Source of the DNA: a bacterium
GTDB taxonomy: Bacteria > Bacillota_I > Bacilli_A > Mycoplasmatales > Mycoplasmoidaceae
Direction of reading: 5' to 3'
NCBI GenBank assembly: GCA_017448105.1
Contig: JAFSMC010000007.1
Coordinates: 1 to 39,937 of the forward strand
Length of the DNA stretch: 39,937 nt
This document shows positions 12,834-31,549 of this stretch, piece after piece. Every line of letters starts with the position of its first letter. The first letter of the stretch is position 1. The position numbers and the translations under genes were made by a program. The notes under the pieces were generated by a model. That model did no database searches and had not been told where the DNA came from. It worked only from the letters and a program-made list of their open reading frames with translations.

Positions 12834-13403
12834 CTAAATCATAATTAAATTTTCATTATTCAAAAATGTTTTCTCTTTTTTAATATGGTCATAAAATAAA
12901 ATCCCATCAAGATGTTCAATTTCATGTTGAAAACATACTGCTGGCAAACCACTTAGTTCCAAGATTATGTTTTTCTTGGCTAACATATCATAGCCTTCAA
13001 CAACTATGTGATATCAACGCTCAACATTACCCTCATGTTTTGTTTTAACACTTAAACAACCTTCGCCATTTGTTAAACAGCATTTTTGCAAACTATGTTG
13101 AATAATTTTGGGATTAGCAAGCAAATACTTGTAGATTTTTGTGTCATATTGAAAGTTGGTGTAAATAATTCTTTTATCGCAACCAACTTGTGGGGCAGCA
13201 ATTGCAATTCCTTCTTGCAAACCATATTTTTTACTTATTCCTTTTGCACATGCATCAATATAAGTTACCAATTTATTAACATATTCTTGGTCTTCTTGAT
13301 TTAAAGGTAATACTACATTTTTGCATTTAGTTCTTAATGCAGGATGCGTATCGTCTAATATTCAATCATTTGTGGGGTGTAAACCACCATTACTTTTAAA
13401 CAT
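12834..13403 (-). CDS. def: peptide deformylase
   Basis: 189 residues. It removes the formyl group from nascent N-termini and is metal-dependent. The three motifs are GIAIAAPQ (about 65-72), EGCLS with the metal-ligand Cys at 116, and QHEIEHLDG with His 160 and 164. The start is taken as [14 protein letters not shown]. Trp residues are encoded by TGA. The C-terminal tail [14 protein letters not shown] ends in the Shine-Dalgarno of rnj, so the two genes form a def-rnj unit. The promoter is in the 82-base gap shared with the divergent HPr-like gene. Confidence 0.9.
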
Positions 13404-13431
13404 ATAAAGATAAAAGAAATAAGCTAACATG

Positions 13432-13485: not shown

Positions 13486-13764
13486 ATGAAACGAGCCACA
13501 GTTAGAATCATTGATAAACGATGATTATCTATTAAGTACATTGAAAAAATAACTATGCTTGCTAACAAGTATCGTTGTGATATTATCTTTAATTATGATG
13601 GTGATGTAGCTAATGCTAAGTCAATTATTAATTTAATGTCTATTTTTAGCCATATCAAAAAATTACCGGCAACTATTGAAATACTTTTTAAAGGTTGGAG
13701 TGATGCACAAGAAGCTTTCGATACTATTATTAGCACAATGAAAGAAACTAAATTTGTTCTTTAA
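13486..13764 (+). CDS. HPr-like protein lacking the phospho-His (Crh-like)
   Basis: 92 residues, beginning MKRATVRIIDKRWLSIKYIE and ending TKFVL. The HPr fold is clear: NAKSIINLMSI matches the region around the regulatory serine of HPr, with Ser at exactly residue 46, followed by ATIEILFKG and AFDTI. At the phosphotransfer site the usual GIHARPA is replaced by WLSIKYI: residue 15 is Ser instead of His and residue 17 is Lys instead of Arg. It therefore cannot pass phosphate from enzyme I to EIIs. Crh of Bacillus has the same combination (no His15, Ser46 kept) and acts in catabolite regulation; a regulatory role through HPr kinase is inferred. Its 3' end overlaps the convergent PHP gene by 17 bases. 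No Shine-Dalgarno; TATAAT lies 8 bases before the ATG. Confidence 0.75.
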
Positions 13765-14878
13765 TTTGCTCAAAAAACAAAAGTAATTGTTTTCAATTCT
13801 TTATTTTAGAAAAAGTTTCTAAAGGCAAATCGTAGTTGCTTTTATTTACAATGTAACAACTTGTTTGTTGATTAAGTTCATTACATAATTTTTGATCATT
13901 AGAAACAACAATACTTCATACTGGGTGAATATTGTGCTGCTTTAAATAATCTATAAAGTAACTTACTTTTTTTTGTTGATATGTAACTACTTGACACTTG
14001 TTTTTGTTTAATTCATCACGTAGTGATGGGCTAAGTAAATGATAAAGATTATTTTGAATAAAAATTACTTGTGGTTTTTTATCAAAGAATTTTACTTGTG
14101 GTTTTTTAATAATGTTTTTCTCTAACCCTCATTTATAAGCTAAAGCATAATTTTGTTCCACTCATTCTTGTTGAATGGTAGAAATGTCGTGACTATCATT
14201 TTCAATAATAACTTTGACTGGTGAATTAGCTACCATTTTCCAAAATTTTTCTACTGGATAGTGCCAAACACTTTTAGGTTGGGTGTAATTAATATTAAAT
14301 CCTAGTGGGATATCATATTTAATTGCACTAGCAATTATTTTTTTGCAAAGTTCATCAACCGTGTTATCTCATTTTTGATAAGAATTAAGGAAGATTTCTG
14401 GATGAGCTATTCAAGAATAAGTTCTTGATTCTAAAGCGGCCTCTAAATTTATTCAATATTGTTTAAGTTGGTCTTTAGTTTTGGTATCATAACATGTATA
14501 AATAAGTGGTTCTTCTTTTAAAACATTGTTATAGAAGTGATTACCACAGATCATAAACTCACAAATAGGATCTCTAGCTAACTTTTCAAAATAGTACCTA
14601 TTTTCTTGGCTGCATTCAGTTTCATAACCTAAATAAAGCTTAATTTTTTGTTTATGTTTTTTCGATAAATCGTTAATTTCTTTCTTGTAAGTAAATAATT
14701 GAGAGTATTTAACTCTAGAGTACTTATAATGTGAGGACTGAGTACCAGGTAGTGGACAATGTTCACAAAAATAAATAGCTTCGAAACTGTGTTTCAAAGC
14801 ATAGTCAACAATTTCTTGCACTTCATTACTAGAATGATTACAAATTTTGTTATGAATGTGATAAAGGAACATTTTCAT
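13748..14878 (-). CDS. PHP-domain phosphatase, HisK-like, with C-terminal extension
   Basis: 376 residues with several TGA-Trp codons. Residues 1 to about 275 are a PHP metal-dependent hydrolase: LYHIHNKICNH (His7, His9), YFCEHC, YLGYETECS, CGNHFY, SWIAHPEIF and IIENDSHD are in the order of the metal-binding motifs of histidinol-phosphatase-type proteins. The remaining ~100 residues (from about ALAYKWGLEKN) are not part of a normal HisK protein, and I do not recognise them. No histidine pathway is present here, so the real substrate is unknown. The start is preceded by TATAAT 8 bases upstream and no Shine-Dalgarno. Its end overlaps the HPr-like gene on the other strand. Confidence 0.75.
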
Positions 14879-14947: not shown

Positions 14948-15127
14948 CTATTTTACTTCGATAGCTTTAGCTGGACAAACACCTGCACAAGCACCGCAAC
15001 CAACACATTTTGCTTCATCAACAGTTGCTTTACCATCAGGACCAATTGTAATAGCACCTATAGGACATGTGCTTGTACAAGCCCCACACCCTAAACATTT
15101 ACTTTTGTCAACACTTGCTTTTGCCAT
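14948..15127 (-). CDS. 2[4Fe-4S] ferredoxin
   Basis: 59 residues. Two classic clusters: CLGCGACTSTCP at 11-22 and CVGCGACAGVCP at 41-52. This is a clostridial-type low-potential electron carrier, likely working with the [FeFe] hydrogenase at 30125-31549 and with other anaerobic oxidoreductases encoded elsewhere. Strong Shine-Dalgarno (GGAGG) before the ATG, its own promoter and its own terminator make it a single-gene unit. Ferredoxins are uncommon in mycoplasmas, which points to an anaerobic lifestyle. Confidence 0.96.
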   Translation of the reverse strand: MAKASVDKSKCLGCGACTSTCPIGAITIGPDGKATVDEAKCVGCGACAGVCPAKAIEVK

Positions 15128-15432: not shown

Positions 15433-15439
15433 AATAGAT

Positions 15440-15698
15440 GCATTGAAGGGGACAGTAGCTTTAATGTTTTGTAAAAGTGAGCTAGGTATAGTGTAAACTA
15501 GTTGCAAACTTATTGTGAAAAACACCCCTGAGCTAACTACCGAAAAGATTTCTTAGTAGGCTAGTTCGATGGCAATCGTTAAATGTCAAGGCTGAAGAAG
15601 CTAAAGATTACATTAGGTGTAATGAATTAAGGTGGCACCACGGATTAAACATATTCGTCCTTATTAGTTCCAAAATGGATGGATATGTTTTTTATTTA
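15440..15698 (+). promoter_or_regulatory. T-box riboswitch, apparent Asn (AAC) specifier
   Basis: Leader of aspS-gatCAB. Stem I shows the conserved AGTA (15454-15457), the GTGAG bulge and terminal part near 15477-15502, and the specifier side GAAA-AAC-ACC, in which AAC at 15521-15523 holds the specifier position (compare GAAC-UAC-ACC in Bacillus tyrS). The T-box sequence AAGGTGGCACCACGG is at 15629-15643; its TGGC would pair with the ACCA end plus a G discriminator, as in tRNA(Asn) and tRNA(Asp). The terminator has 14-base arms at 15647-15660 and 15677-15690 with G-U pairs, then a T-run. Uncharged tRNA should favour the antiterminator and switch on the operon. The specifier reading was made by eye. 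Confidence 0.9.
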
Positions 15699-15715: not shown

Positions 15716-17470
15716 ATGAAAAATATTTATCATACTCATTATTGCAAAGATTTAAATGAAAAGAATATTGGTCAAAAAGTCACCATTTCAGGGTGAGTTG
15801 AAAATATTAGAGACCATGGAGGAGTATTATTTGTTGATATCCGTGATACTTATGGAATTTTACAAATAGTAAGTAATGACAATAAGTTATTCAAAGGCTT
15901 AAGTAAAGAAAGTGTTGTTTGTGTCAGTGGTTCTATTAGAGAAAGAAGTGCTGAAACAATTAATCCTAAATTGTTAACAGGTAAAATTGAATTACTTGTT
16001 GATAGTTTTAAAGTTTTATCAAAATCAAAAAGTGAACTGCCTTTTCCCATCTTTTTTTCCAAGAGCACTAAAGAGGATATCCGTTTAAAATACCGATACC
16101 TAGACTTAAGAAATAATAAAATAAAAGATAACTTGATATTACGGAGTAAAATTTTGCATTTTTTACGTAATAAAATGTTTGATCTTGGTTTTGTGGAAGT
16201 ACAAACTCCGATTTTAACTGCTTCAAGCCCTGAAGGGGCAAGAGACTTTGTAGTTCCTTCAAGAGCATTTAAAGGAAGATTTTATGCTCTTCCTCAAGCT
16301 CCACAAATTTATAAAGAATTATTAATGGTCAGTGGTTTTGAAAAGTATTTTCAAATTGCTCCATGCTTTAGGGATGAAGATTCTAGATCAGACCGTACTT
16401 TAGAATTTTATCAACTAGATTTGGAAATGAGTTTTGTTACTGAAGAAGACGTTTTAAAACTTGGTGAAGAAATTTTCTATGATGTGTTTAAAACTTTTTC
16501 AAAGAAAAAGATTTCTCCCAAGCCATTTAGAAGAATTGCTTACAATGATGCTCTAGAAATGTATGGAACTGATAAACCAGACTTAAGAAACCCATTAACA
16601 ATTCAAGATATTTCTAAAATTTTAAAAGATACAACTTTTAAACCTTTTCAAAAAGCCTTTATTAAAGCAATTAAAGTAGATGATATAGGTAACAAACCTA
16701 ATTCGTGGTTTAATGAAGTAGTTGATTATGCTATTAGCATTGGTATGCCAGGAATTGGTTATATCACCATGGTTAGTGATGATACTTTTAAAGGACCAAT
16801 CACTAAATTTCTTTCAGAAAAAGAAAGAAAAGAACTTATTGCTTTATGCAAGATGAAAAAGCAATCAGTATTATTTTTTATTGGTAATAGAACTAAAAAA
16901 CTTGCTCAAAAGTATGCTGGTTTAATTAGAGATAAGTTAGGTCAAATGTGTAATCTAATTGATCCTAATCGTCTTGAACTATGTATTATTAATGATTTTC
17001 CAATGTTTGAATATGATCCAAAAGCTAAAAAATATGAATTCTGTCATAACCCATTTAGTTTACCTAAGCAAGGAATTAAAGCTTTTGACAGCAAAAACTT
17101 AGATGATATCTTAGCTTATCAATATGACTTTGTATGTAATGGTAATGAACTTGCTTCTGGAGCAATTAGAAACCATGATTTGAAAAGTTTAGCTAGAGCT
17201 TTTAGTATTGTTGGTTATAAACCAGAAGAAATTAAGAAAAGATTCCAATCAATTTTTACTGCTTTCCAATATGGTTGTCCGCCACATGGCGGTATGGCAC
17301 CAGGGATTGATAGAATCATTATGTTAATCCAAGACGAATCAAACTTAAGAGAAGTTCAAGCTTTCCCAACCAGTGCTAGTGGCCAAGATTTAATGATGGG
17401 TAGTCCATCATATTTGACTAATGAACAGCTTGATGAACTTGGAATTATAATTAGGAAGGAAGAAAAATAA
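15716..17470 (+). CDS. aspS: aspartyl-tRNA synthetase, probably non-discriminating
   Basis: 584 residues, the length of a bacterial AspRS. The N-terminal OB-fold binds the anticodon; the class II core has motif 2 at FRDEDSRSDRTLEF and motif 3 GMAPGIDRIIML; a GAD insertion is present between them. The anticodon-domain loop reads RDHGG (His34) where discriminating E. coli AspRS has RDLGS; His at this place is associated with relaxed enzymes that also make Asp-tRNA(Asn). With GatCAB directly behind and an Asn-type T-box in front, I infer that it charges both tRNA(Asp) and tRNA(Asn). Shine-Dalgarno AGGAAGG. TGA-Trp at about residue 27. Stop overlaps the gatC start by one base. Confidence 0.94.
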
Positions 17471-25756: not shown

Positions 25757-26146
25757 TGGTGGAGGTGGCGAGAATCGAACTCGCTTCCACAATACACCCA
25801 AAATAAGTTTCTACAGTTTAGTTTCATTTTGAAGCTTCATCAATACTCTTGTGTAATGAAACAACACGGTATTAAGATAGCTAAGTTAGGTATTCATCTT
25901 TTTTATTAGCATCAAAAGATATATTATTTTTAGCTAAAACAATAAATTAAAATAAAAAAATTTATTGAGTAAAAACCATGACTAAGCTAAAGCGTAATTA
26001 TAGTTTTGAGCTTGAAACTTACTAACGTAAAAAGCTCCTTTTACATTAGGTTGTTCATGTTCTGCACGTTTGTGCCTTGAGCTATAAGGGGCTAACCCCA
26101 CTGCTACTTAAACTAACATGTAAAGTGTCGAAACCTTTACACCCCC
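25757..26146 (-). ncRNA. ssrA: transfer-messenger RNA
   Basis: 390 bases. The 5' end GGGGGTG pairs with CACCTCC before the encoded ACCA end, giving a 7-bp acceptor. The T-arm GCGAGTTCGATTCTCGC and the first pseudoknot block GCAGTGGGGTTAGCCCC are canonical. The tag starts at a GCA resume codon and reads 27 residues, beginning AEHEQPNVK and ending NYNYALA before TAG, as expected for a mycoplasma tmRNA. It rescues stalled ribosomes. A TATAAT at 26161-26166 (minus strand) is the likely -10, so RNase P would trim a short leader. Confidence 0.96.
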
Positions 26147-27021: not shown

Positions 27022-27060
27022 TATAATAATAAATGTTAAATTATGATGTAATCATAATTT
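27022..27060 (+). promoter_or_regulatory. pflB promoter with 23-bp perfect palindrome
   Basis: TATAAT at 27022-27027. Eleven bases later lies a perfect palindrome, arms AAATTATGAT/ATCATAATTT around GTA (27038-27060), in the leader close to the expected start of transcription. This is a good place for a repressor; it could also be an mRNA hairpin. The Shine-Dalgarno AAGGAG follows at 27072. Confidence 0.65.
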
Positions 27061-27086
27061 ATTTAGTGTGTAAGGAGCAAGTAGTT

Positions 27087-29405
27087 ATGACTAATAACAA
27101 AATGTGGTTTAAGCAATGAGATGGTTTTAAAAAAGGTAAATGATGTGATAATGTTGATACCAGAGATTTTATTCAAAAGAACTATGAACCATATTATGAT
27201 GATGCTTCTTTCTTAAAAGGTCCAACTAAAGCAACAGTTAAACTATGAGGTATTATTAAAGACTTAATGATTAAAGAACAACAAGCTGGTGGTGTATTAG
27301 GGATGGACCCTAGAGCTAGTTTTATTAATGCTTATGGCGCAGGTTATATTGATAAAAACTTGGAAAAAATTGTTGGTTTGCAAACTGAAAAACCATTTGT
27401 TCGTGCTTTTATGCCACGTGGTGGAATTAGAATGGCTAAACAAGCTGCTGAACAATACCACTTTCCAACTGATAAGAATGTTGTTGATGCTTACTCTAAC
27501 TATTGTATCACTCACAATGATGCAGTCTTTATGACATATACAGATGAAATGCTACTTGCAAGAAAAAGTCATATCTTAACTGGTTTACCAGACACTTATG
27601 CTAGAGGACGAATCATTGGTGATTATCGTCGTGTTGCTTTGTATGGTGTAGATTATTTAATTGCTAAAAAACAAGCCGCTAAAAAAACAATTGATGGTCA
27701 AATGACTGATAACAAGATTTTACAAAGATATGAGCTTGCTTTACAAATTAATGCTTTAGAAGAACTGAAAAAAATGGCTTTAACTTATGGTTATGATATT
27801 TCACAACCAGCTAAAAATGCTCAAGAAGCTATTCAATGAACATACTTTGGTTATCTAGCGGCAATTAAAGATCAAAATGGTGCAGCTATGAGTATAGGTA
27901 GAAACTCTACATTCTTTGATATTTATATTCAACGTGATATTAAAAATAATTTATTAACTGAAGAACAAGCTCAAGAATTGATTGATCACTACGTGATGAA
28001 ATTAAGAATCGTTAAATTCATGAGAATTACTTCTTACAATGAAATCTTTGCTGGTGATCCAGTTTGAGCGACTGAATCACTTGCTGGTCTAGGCAAAGAT
28101 AAAAGACCATTAGTAACTAAATCATCATTTAGAATTTTGCATACTTTAAGTAATATGGGACCAGCACCTGAGCCAAATTTAACTGTTTTGTGGTCTAAAA
28201 AATTACCAGATAACTTTAAAAAGTTCTGTTGTCAATATTCTATTAGATACTCATCTATTCAATATGAATCAGATGATCTAATGCGTCCAATTCATGGTGA
28301 TGATTATGCTATTGCTTGTTGTGTTTCGCCAATGGCAATTGGTAAAGAAATGCAATTTTTTGGAGCAAGAGCTAATTTGGCTAAAGCTCTGCTTTATGCA
28401 ATTAACAATGGTCATGATGAATTACACCCTGAAATTAAATTAGGTCCAAAATTAAAACGTCTTAATTTTAATAAACCATTAACCTATAGCAAAATATGAA
28501 TTCGTTATAAGAAAGTTTTGCAATGATTGGCAAAACTTTACATTAATACTTTGAATGTTATTCACTATTCTCATGATAAACATTACTATGAAGCATTAGA
28601 AATGGGTTTACACGATGATAAAATTACTCGTTTTTTTGCTACTGGTATTGCTGGTTTTTCATCAGTTGTTGATAGTTTATCAGCAATCAAATATGCTAAA
28701 GTAAAAGCAATTGTTGATCCCAATACTAAAATTGTTAGTGACTTTAAAATTGAAGGCGATTTTCCTAAATATGGAAATGACAATGATAAAGTGGATAAGA
28801 TTGCTGTGAAAGTTACTAAATATTTTGTTAAAGAATTAAGAAAACACAAAGCTTATCGTCATGGTAAACATACTATGTCAATCTTAACTATTACATCTAA
28901 TGTTATGTATGGTAAATTTACTGGTGCTACTCCAGATGGCCGTAAAGCGTTTACGCCATTTGCCCCTGGGGCAAACCCAATGCATGGCCGTGATTGCTCA
29001 GGAGCAGTAGCAAGTTTATCATCTGTAAGTAAAATCCCATTTGCTTATGCAGCTGATGGAATTAGTAATACTTTTAATATTGTACCAATGGCTTTGGGCA
29101 ATAATAAACAATTTACTATCAGTAAAGATTCATCTTTTGATTTAGATAAGAAAAATATTGTCGGTAAAGAAAATTGTAGTCATGAACAAAACTTAAGTTC
29201 TTTAATTGATGGCTATTTTGCTAAAGGAGCACAACATCTCAATGTTAATGTTTTAAATAGAGACACTTTATTAGATGCACAAATCCATCCAGAGAACTAT
29301 CCTCAATTAACTATTCGTGTTTCTGGTTATGCAGTAAACTTCATTAAGTTATCTAAACAACATCAAGATGAAGTAATTGCAAGAACTTTCCATGTTTCTT
29401 TCTAA
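27087..29405 (+). CDS. pflB: pyruvate formate-lyase
   Basis: 772 residues (E. coli PflB has 760), with both TGG and TGA for Trp. It splits pyruvate with CoA into acetyl-CoA and formate without oxygen. The active-site pair Cys411-Cys412 is in IACCVSPM, and the glycyl radical is Gly747 in RVSGYAVNF near the C-terminus. [36 protein letters not shown] and [19 protein letters not shown] are PflB hallmarks. Good Shine-Dalgarno (AAGGAG). Its end overlaps pflA by 14 bases. In the cell it should feed acetate/ATP production. Confidence 0.97.
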
Positions 29406-30159
29406 AGCTAAAATCTTTAAAATTGAATCTTTTGGAGCAGTAGATGGTCCAGGTGTTAGACTAGTTTTCTTTTTTCAGGGTTGCTCATACCGTTGTTTGT
29501 ATTGTCACAACCCTGAAGGTTGACAACAGTCTTGCAGTTTGACTAAAAAGTTGTCAATAAGACAAATGTTAAAGATTTATCAAAATAATAAGTCATTTTA
29601 TACCAATGGTGGCATTACTGTTTCAGGCGGTGATCCATTATTACAAATTGATTTCTTAATCAAATTTGCTAAAGTATGTAAAAGAAAAAAAATTCATTTG
29701 GCTATTTGTACTGCGTGTGGTAACTTGCATCAAGATAAAAGTAAATATCTCAAATTACTTAAGTATGTTGATTTATGAATTATTGACGTTAAAGCCTTTA
29801 ATAAACAAGATCATCAATTTATTACTAAAAATGATGAATTAAATGAAAAAGAATTTGTTCAAATCTTAGAAGAACATAAAAAACCATATTGAATTAGTTA
29901 TGTTCTTGTTGACAAACTAACTAATCATCATAGTCAATTGGAAGAATTAGGTAGATTTATTGGTGGTCTAAAATACCTAGAAAAATTTCTTTTATTGTCC
30001 TATCATAATATGGCAATTAGTAAATATAATAATTTAAAGATAAATTATCCATTGGTAAGTACACCAGTATTGGATTCATCACAAAAACAACAAGCATTAG
30101 AAATAATAAGAAAGTTTAGTAAAAATGATAAAATTTGAAGCTCAGACTCAAAAACTTAA
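29392..30159 (+). CDS. pflA: pyruvate formate-lyase activating enzyme
   Basis: 255 residues. A radical-SAM enzyme that puts the glycyl radical on PflB. The cluster motif is [10 protein letters not shown] (CxxxCxxC), with [18 protein letters not shown] just before it and [13 protein letters not shown] after it, both typical of PflA. Trp residues are TGA. It starts inside the end of pflB and overlaps the hydrogenase start by 35 bases, so all three genes are one transcript. A reductant such as flavodoxin or ferredoxin is needed; the ferredoxin at 14948-15127 is a candidate. Confidence 0.95.
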
Positions 30160-31549
30160 AATTGATATCTTATCTAAAATTGCTACTTTTGCCTTTGAAG
30201 GCAAAAGGATAGATCAACAAATTATTAATCAAATAGTTTTAGACCTTTGTCCAGGTCCAAAAGCTAAGTATTATGGTGATCTAGAAACTGAAAGAACGAT
30301 TATTACCAAAATTATCAGTATTTTGCTAGATAGTAAGAATGAAAATATCATTCATGTTATTAAAGAAGCTTGTAATCGCTGTCCTGACGATGGTTACTTT
30401 ATTTCTAAAAGTTGTCAAGGCTGTGTTGCTCACAAATGTCAATGTGCTTGTCCTAAACAAGCTATTACAATTGGTCATGATGGTAAAGCGTTAATAGATA
30501 AATCTAAGTGTATTAATTGTGGTTTATGTGCCAAGGCTTGTCCATTTAATGCAATTATTAATCGTCAACGTCCATGTTTATCAGCATGTGCTATTAAAAC
30601 TATGGGCATGGATCAAGGAAAATATGCTCAAATTAACAAAAATAACTGTGTTAATTGTGGAGCATGTTTAAATGCTTGTCCTTTTGATGCCATTATTGAC
30701 AGTTCTCAAATAGTTGATGTTATCAATTTATTAGTAAATAAAGTAAAAAACCAAAAAGTTTATGCAATTATTGCTCCAGCTATTGCTAGTCAAATTCCAG
30801 GAGTATCTATTTCACAATTTGCTGCAGCAATAAAAGGATTAGGTTTTGATGTTGTAGCTGAAGCAGCTATTGGTGCAGATATGGTGGCAACTAATGAATC
30901 TAAAGAACTAGTAGAAAAGAAGTTACTAACTTCTTCATGTTGTCCAGCTTTTGTTAAATATGTTAAAAAATTTCATCCAAGTTTAATTAATAACATTTCA
31001 CATAATTTAAGTCCAATGGCGGCTTTAGGTCAATATATTTGCTCACAAAATCCTAATGCTGTTTGTGTGTTTATTGGGCCATGTACTGCCAAAAAAATGG
31101 AATCTCAATGAGAAACTGTCAAAAAATATGTTCCATTTAGTCTTACATTTGTAGAACTAATAGCTATGCTACAAGCTAAGAATATTGATCTATTTAAGGC
31201 ACAATCAACAGATTTATATACTGGTAGCTATTTTGGCCGTATATTTGCTAGATGTGGAGGACTATCAGAAGCAGTAGTACAAGCTCTAAAAGAACAAAAT
31301 ATCAATGATTTTGTTGTTAATGGAGTAGCTTGTTCAGGTTTAAATGAATGTGCCAGAGTAGTAACTGAAATTGAACAAAAGAAATCAGATAAGAATTTTG
31401 TTGAAGGAATGTGTTGTGTTGGTGGTTGCATTGGTGGTGCTGGAAGTTTAACTCACAATGCTGCAACTAAATTTTCAATTAATATTGCTGCAAAAACAAG
31501 CGATAGTCAAACTATTAAACAATCATTAGAAAAGAATGTTAAAAAATAA
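30125..31549 (+). CDS. monomeric [FeFe] hydrogenase, group B type
   Basis: 474 residues. All three H-cluster signatures are complete: TSSCCPAF (proton-relay Cys272, ligand Cys273), IGPCTAKK (Cys320) and EGMCCVGGCIGG (Cys431, Cys435). TSCCPA in place of TSCCPGW is typical of group B enzymes. The N-terminal half has a Cys-rich region (97-109) and two 4Fe-4S motifs, CINCGLCAKACP at 129-140 and CVNCGACLNACP at 175-186. It should make H2 from reduced ferredoxin, or consume or sense it. Active enzyme needs the HydE, HydF and HydG maturases, which are not in this window. Overlap with pflA shows it is co-expressed with formate production. One TGA-Trp at 329. Confidence 0.92.

Follow-up and report, generated by a model that had tools for sequence, protein, structure and literature searches.

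A putative HPr kinase target lacking His15 in Candidatus Hennigella and other PTS-less Mycoplasmoidaceae

Crh of Bacillus subtilis has the HPr fold, with His15 replaced and Ser46 kept as the site of HPr kinase (HprK), and has no role as a PTS carrier. It works beside a normal HPr, the PTS and CcpA. In the mycoplasmas M. pneumoniae and M. capricolum, which have no CcpA, HPr is phosphorylated by HprK at Ser46 (reviewed in PMC12689956); unlike the genome described here, both species have a complete PTS and His15. The proteobacteria Brucella (PMC2937029) and Xanthomonas (PMC6916182) keep HprK and HPr for regulation without PTS permeases and have HprK without CcpA, but their incomplete PTS retains enzyme I and the normal histidine of HPr/NPr. 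For Ureaplasma, Comas et al. 2008 (PMC2405797) had already pointed out a ptsH gene without ptsI in U. urealyticum, in a paper whose searchable text makes no mention of the lost histidine, and Pereyre et al. 2009 (PMC2751442) remarked on the incomplete PTS of U. parvum. An HPr without enzyme I is therefore known from Ureaplasma, and no description of His15 loss with co-retention of hprK was found in the full-text literature, whose coverage leaves out most subscription papers. In bacteria that lack CcpA, and especially in mycoplasmas, the roles of HprK and HPr-Ser46-P are poorly understood.

The window, as we call the whole stretch of 39,937 nucleotides analyzed here, corresponds to contig C6 in an assembly of 504,644 bases, which is 60.9% complete and belongs to Candidatus Hennigella, a genus of Mycoplasmoidaceae of the mammalian gut (PMC8957277). 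It contains a gene for an HPr-like protein (table 1) which, read with genetic code 4 (TGA=W at residue 13), has the sequence MKRATVRIIDKRWLSIKYIEKITMLANKYRCDIIFNYDGDVANAKSIINLMSIFSHIKKLPATIEILFKGWSDAQEAFDTIISTMKETKFVL. A random frame of 92 codons would remain open at the local base composition with a chance of about 0.002. The initial annotation had placed serines at positions 15 and 46 in exact HPr numbering, and both were confirmed by the translation and by an alignment with B. subtilis HPr that is free of gaps up to residue 55. The GIHARP loop, which carries His15 with Arg17, is absent and WLSIKY stands instead, so that Gly13, His15, Ala16, Arg17 (now Lys17) and Pro18 are all substituted. 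Arg17 of HPr is the helper of the phospho-histidine. In B. subtilis Crh, by contrast, Arg17 and the remainder of the loop are retained. The gene for Crh is found at the whiA (yvcL) operon position, whereas the window gene lies between def and a PHP gene. The orientation first described for these neighbors, divergent for def and convergent with a short overlap for the PHP gene, was verified, as were their families. Promoter and terminator scans gave no signal exceeding the shuffled background.

Table 1. Location of the HPr-like gene, its two diagnostic codons and its neighbors in the window
Feature	Position	Strand	Basis and remarks
HPr-like protein, 92 aa, Ser15 / Lys17 / Ser46	13486..13764	+	Translation with code 4, PF00381, structure model
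Ser15 codon TCT, replacing phospho-acceptor His15	13528..13530	+	Translation, alignment to HPrs
Ser46 codon TCA (HprK target site), within NAKSIINLM	13621..13623	+	Translation, alignment to HPrs
def, peptide deformylase, divergent neighbor, probable start	12834..13430	-	PF01327, 136.6 bits; no functional link claimed
PHP-domain protein, 376 aa, convergent neighbor	13748..14878	-	PF02811; 17-base overlap with HPr-like gene

The homology of the window protein to HPr is real and not due to chance. The PTS-HPr family PF00381 matched it with 32.8 bits (cut-off 23), phmmer against solved HPr and Crh structures gave a best E of 6e-4, and ordinary HPrs of Mycoplasmoidaceae are up to 46% identical to it (E down to 2e-12). 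The cut-off of NCBIfam TIGR01003 (47.9 bits) was not reached (29.6 bits), as expected because the active site is lost. The predicted AlphaFold model (pLDDT 92.8) has the open-faced beta-sandwich fold of HPr, in agreement with the initial reading as an HPr-like protein, and the closest PDB folds are HPrs (Z 15.0 to 1ptf and 2hpr; 14.8 to 1kkl_J and 1pch). The best PDB matches include HPr bound to HprK (1kkl; Z 14.8, rmsd 1.5) and to CcpA (2fep, 1rzr). A destroyed active site and a low identity to other HPrs might also be found in a decaying ptsH relic, a gene that drifts after loss of the PTS and in which Ser46 is left by chance; the open frame and the confident fold model argue against such decay.

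An hprK gene is present in the same genome (G000:C2:80826-81320, E 1.3e-46). Both HprK domains are present, and the gene adjoins one that resembles lgt, an arrangement shared with other mollicutes. The P-loop GRSGIGKS and the Asp-Asp (DD) pair are intact, while the signature has changes of Glu to Ala and Arg to Lys and the C-terminal PVxxGR loop is also altered. In the HprK tree this protein sits on a long branch, which would fit a relic, and the reversibility of the reaction (phosphorylase arm) may differ, or the protein may be drifting. Absence of hprK and of PTS genes had been named as the main sign that the HPr-like gene is a relic; with the kinase gene present, its P-loop intact and Ser46 kept, the window protein stands as a putative HprK target. 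Genes for ptsI, EIIC, a second HPr or a LacI-type HTH regulator such as CcpA were not found in the window genome (60.9% complete), and the window protein is the sole HPr detected there. The absence of ptsI, EIIC and a second HPr is weak evidence when this incomplete genome is taken by itself; in its relatives the absence carries more weight. Since the loop with His15 and Arg17 is lost and no enzyme I or EII was found, we agree with the earlier view that the protein is incapable of the normal PTS carrier role. The Crh arrangement first suggested is upheld in part: His15 is lost, Ser46 is kept and hprK is present, but the second HPr, ptsI, EIIC and LacI-type regulator were not found in this assembly.

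Ca. H. equi, the sister species, carries two HPr genes together with a fructose PTS. One HPr belongs to the operon manA-fruA-ptsH-ptsI (L033 4642-8667, G014:C44) and has His15 but Arg46; the genome also has hprK, and this carrier is apparently insulated from HprK. Contamination was rejected as the source of the operon, which uses TGA for Trp and lies beside infC-rpmI-rplT (named by eye). The second HPr (L032) is the ortholog of the window gene and is likewise convergent with a PHP gene. It has Ser46 and a degenerate loop, YIHRQM, in which the histidine itself is retained and Gly13, Ala16, Arg17 and Pro18 are lost. An insertion near residues 56-60 and Trp71 are common to it and the window protein. 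As judged from these residues, one double-task HPr is replaced in Ca. H. equi by two single-task proteins. The presence of two HPrs with a fructose PTS in this species, together with the 61% completeness of the window assembly, could be taken to favor a true Crh that acts with CcpA in catabolite repression and whose normal HPr is missing from the assembly. However, LacI/CcpA proteins were found in none of the six genomes of the genus and are missing from 93 of the 95 Mycoplasmoidaceae genomes, so that CcpA was rejected as a general partner. Moreover, hprK and a His15-less HPr without ptsI or EIIC were found in G016 (81% complete) and in ten Ureaplasma genomes, several of them 95-99% complete. 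We regard a true Crh as very improbable. The window gene is likely to encode a purely regulatory HPr, part of an HprK/HPr(Ser46) switch that acts on carbon metabolism without PTS or CcpA and follows the logic of Crh without being one.

The survey of the family covered 95 Mycoplasmoidaceae genomes, 31 of which lack both ptsI and EIIC. In 15 of these PTS-less genomes (G000, G016, G039, G069, G072 and G085-G094) hprK is present, and an HPr-like gene is found in exactly the same 15, while the remaining 16 have neither (Fisher p 3.3e-9, relatedness not corrected). All ten Ureaplasma genomes surveyed are among the 15. In every one of the 15 HPr-like proteins the HIARP-type active-site center is gone and Ser46 is kept. 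The initial annotation associated this arrangement with Bacillus and not with mycoplasmas; it is in fact present in 10/10 Ureaplasma genomes and in other Mycoplasmoidaceae. The Ureaplasma proteins share with the window protein the family, the presence of hprK, the lack of ptsI and EIIC, the lost loop and the kept Ser46. The G069 and G072 proteins score just under the Pfam cut-off, and that of G016, the most divergent, was found only through its similarity to the window protein. Weak matches in genomes such as G068, G042 and G047 were dismissed as chance: these genomes have no PF00381 hit and the frame in G068 does not resemble HPr.

On the HprK tree, the His15-less proteins need three changes, one in Hennigella, one in G039 and one in the clade of G069/G072 and Ureaplasma; the strongly supported branches force two. 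Across the order, HPr and hprK are strongly associated: 238 of 320 genomes have both, 49 have neither and 33 are mixed. Within the order but in a different family, the genome G206 (99% complete; L144 1480-1752) has GIDALLAS in place of GIHARPAS, with His15 changed to Asp, Ser46 kept and hprK present; on these residues its HPr is an independent, further case of His15 loss. Low-scoring HPrs (family f11; G184, G115 and G247) were rejected as further cases, the readable ones having His15. In G039, the HprK (L086 3457-4395) lacks the C-terminal PVxxGR loop and has the signature Arg changed to Lys, and may have lost phosphorylase activity.

Conservation within these proteins is uneven. In the 15 PTS-less proteins the column entropy is 1.1-3.2 bits at positions 13 and 15-19, versus 0 in the PTS HPrs of the family, and 0-0.35 bits at Lys45, Ser46, Ile48 and Asn49. 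Among 16 active-site-degenerate HPrs, Ser46 is invariant and Lys45, Ile48 and Asn49 are invariant or nearly so. Four Ureaplasma copies of the HPr-like gene gave dN/dS values of 0.21-0.33, and a derived insertion near residues 56-60 and Trp71 are common to the HPr-like proteins of three Hennigella species. A drifting relic would agree with the complete loss of the HPr gene from 16 other PTS-less genomes. It does not agree with a Ser46 segment that is almost unchanged while the His15 loop is scrambled, with features common to three species, with purifying selection in Ureaplasma or with persistence of the gene exactly where hprK persists. We therefore consider a relic, the alternative raised at first, to be quite unlikely.

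Ser46 by itself is not a sufficient argument. It caps helix 2 in the established HPr structure. Ser46 is kept in 7/7 order members from outside Mycoplasmoidaceae in which an ordinary HPr is present and hprK is missing, and its conservation alone was rejected as proof of phosphorylation. Because hprK-less genomes keep it, the case for phosphorylation is built on the co-retention with hprK and on the way in which the His15 loop, unlike Ser46, has been scrambled. The same genomes point to a role of Ser46 apart from the kinase, as helix 2 cap, and HPr of other bacteria binds enzymes and regulators, as in its solved complexes with Rsd and with glycogen phosphorylase. The window protein could then be a binding partner, for instance of transketolase, that works without phosphorylation, with HprK kept for another substrate. 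This is unlikely in view of the one-to-one retention of hprK and the HPr-like gene in PTS-less genomes. Since the pair is kept together after loss of the PTS, HprK regulation at Ser46 is the simplest account, and we infer that Ser46 is phosphorylated.

In the regulatory HPr that we favor, selection on the His15 active site would have ended when the PTS was lost in the lineage, and the site would have decayed, while the Ser46 face would have stayed under selection because HprK still phosphorylates it. High levels of glycolytic intermediates and ATP would lead HprK to phosphorylate Ser46, and low levels would lead it to reverse the reaction. The two forms of HPr would bind a target protein differently, and carbon metabolism could be tuned in this way without PTS or CcpA. 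Phosphofructokinase (PFK) is found in 13/15 hprK+ versus 5/16 hprK- PTS-less genomes (p 0.003), which agrees with HprK sensing glycolytic intermediates; G039 keeps the hprK/HPr-like pair without PFK.

The Ureaplasma HPr gene is located directly upstream of the transketolase gene (tkt) in 9/10 genomes, and in several of them it overlaps the tkt start by some 15 bases; deoC adjoins HPr or tkt in 9/10 (L064-L070, L036, L038). In G090 the His15-less HPr gene is beside deoC, with no tkt next to it. The neighbor families were confirmed in one Ureaplasma genome and assigned by eye on sequence similarity in the rest. The Hennigella gene, by contrast, lies by def and the PHP gene and has no conserved enzyme operon. 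In B. subtilis, HPr-Ser46-P reportedly binds GapA and inhibits it (Pompeo 2007, cited in PMC12445079). Central-carbon enzymes are tentatively our preferred output and may be the best candidate targets because of the PFK association, the tkt/deoC neighborhood in Ureaplasma and the inhibition of GapA in B. subtilis. P-Ser-HPr is known elsewhere to bring about inducer exclusion by way of a MalK-type ABC transporter. A common target of this type was rejected here, as none of the 36 genomes examined, which included 31 PTS-less ones, gave an OB_MalK domain. Chances are about even that a stand-alone HprK/HPr-Ser46 switch, independent of PTS and CcpA, acts directly on central-carbon enzymes (in Ureaplasma perhaps on transketolase) and was distilled repeatedly in mollicutes by the loss of all but the kinase and the serine. 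Lineages without PTS and CcpA are natural experiments, in which effects of losing hprK or HPr must reflect a third output, and the transketolase/deoC neighborhood of Ureaplasma offers a concrete target candidate.

Other features were found in the window. A tmRNA is present at 25757-26146 on the minus strand (Rfam RF00023). A T-box leader (15434-15665, plus strand; Rfam RF00230, 117 bits) is located directly upstream of aspS (15716-17470), and would place an aminoacyl-tRNA synthetase of a mollicute under T-box control. The window also has a 2[4Fe-4S] ferredoxin (14948-15127) and, at 27033-31549 on the plus strand, a row of genes for pyruvate formate-lyase, its activating enzyme and an [FeFe]-hydrogenase-like protein (assigned by eye from the sequence). 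These genes point to an anaerobic and probably H2-producing fermentation in this member of Mycoplasmoidaceae.
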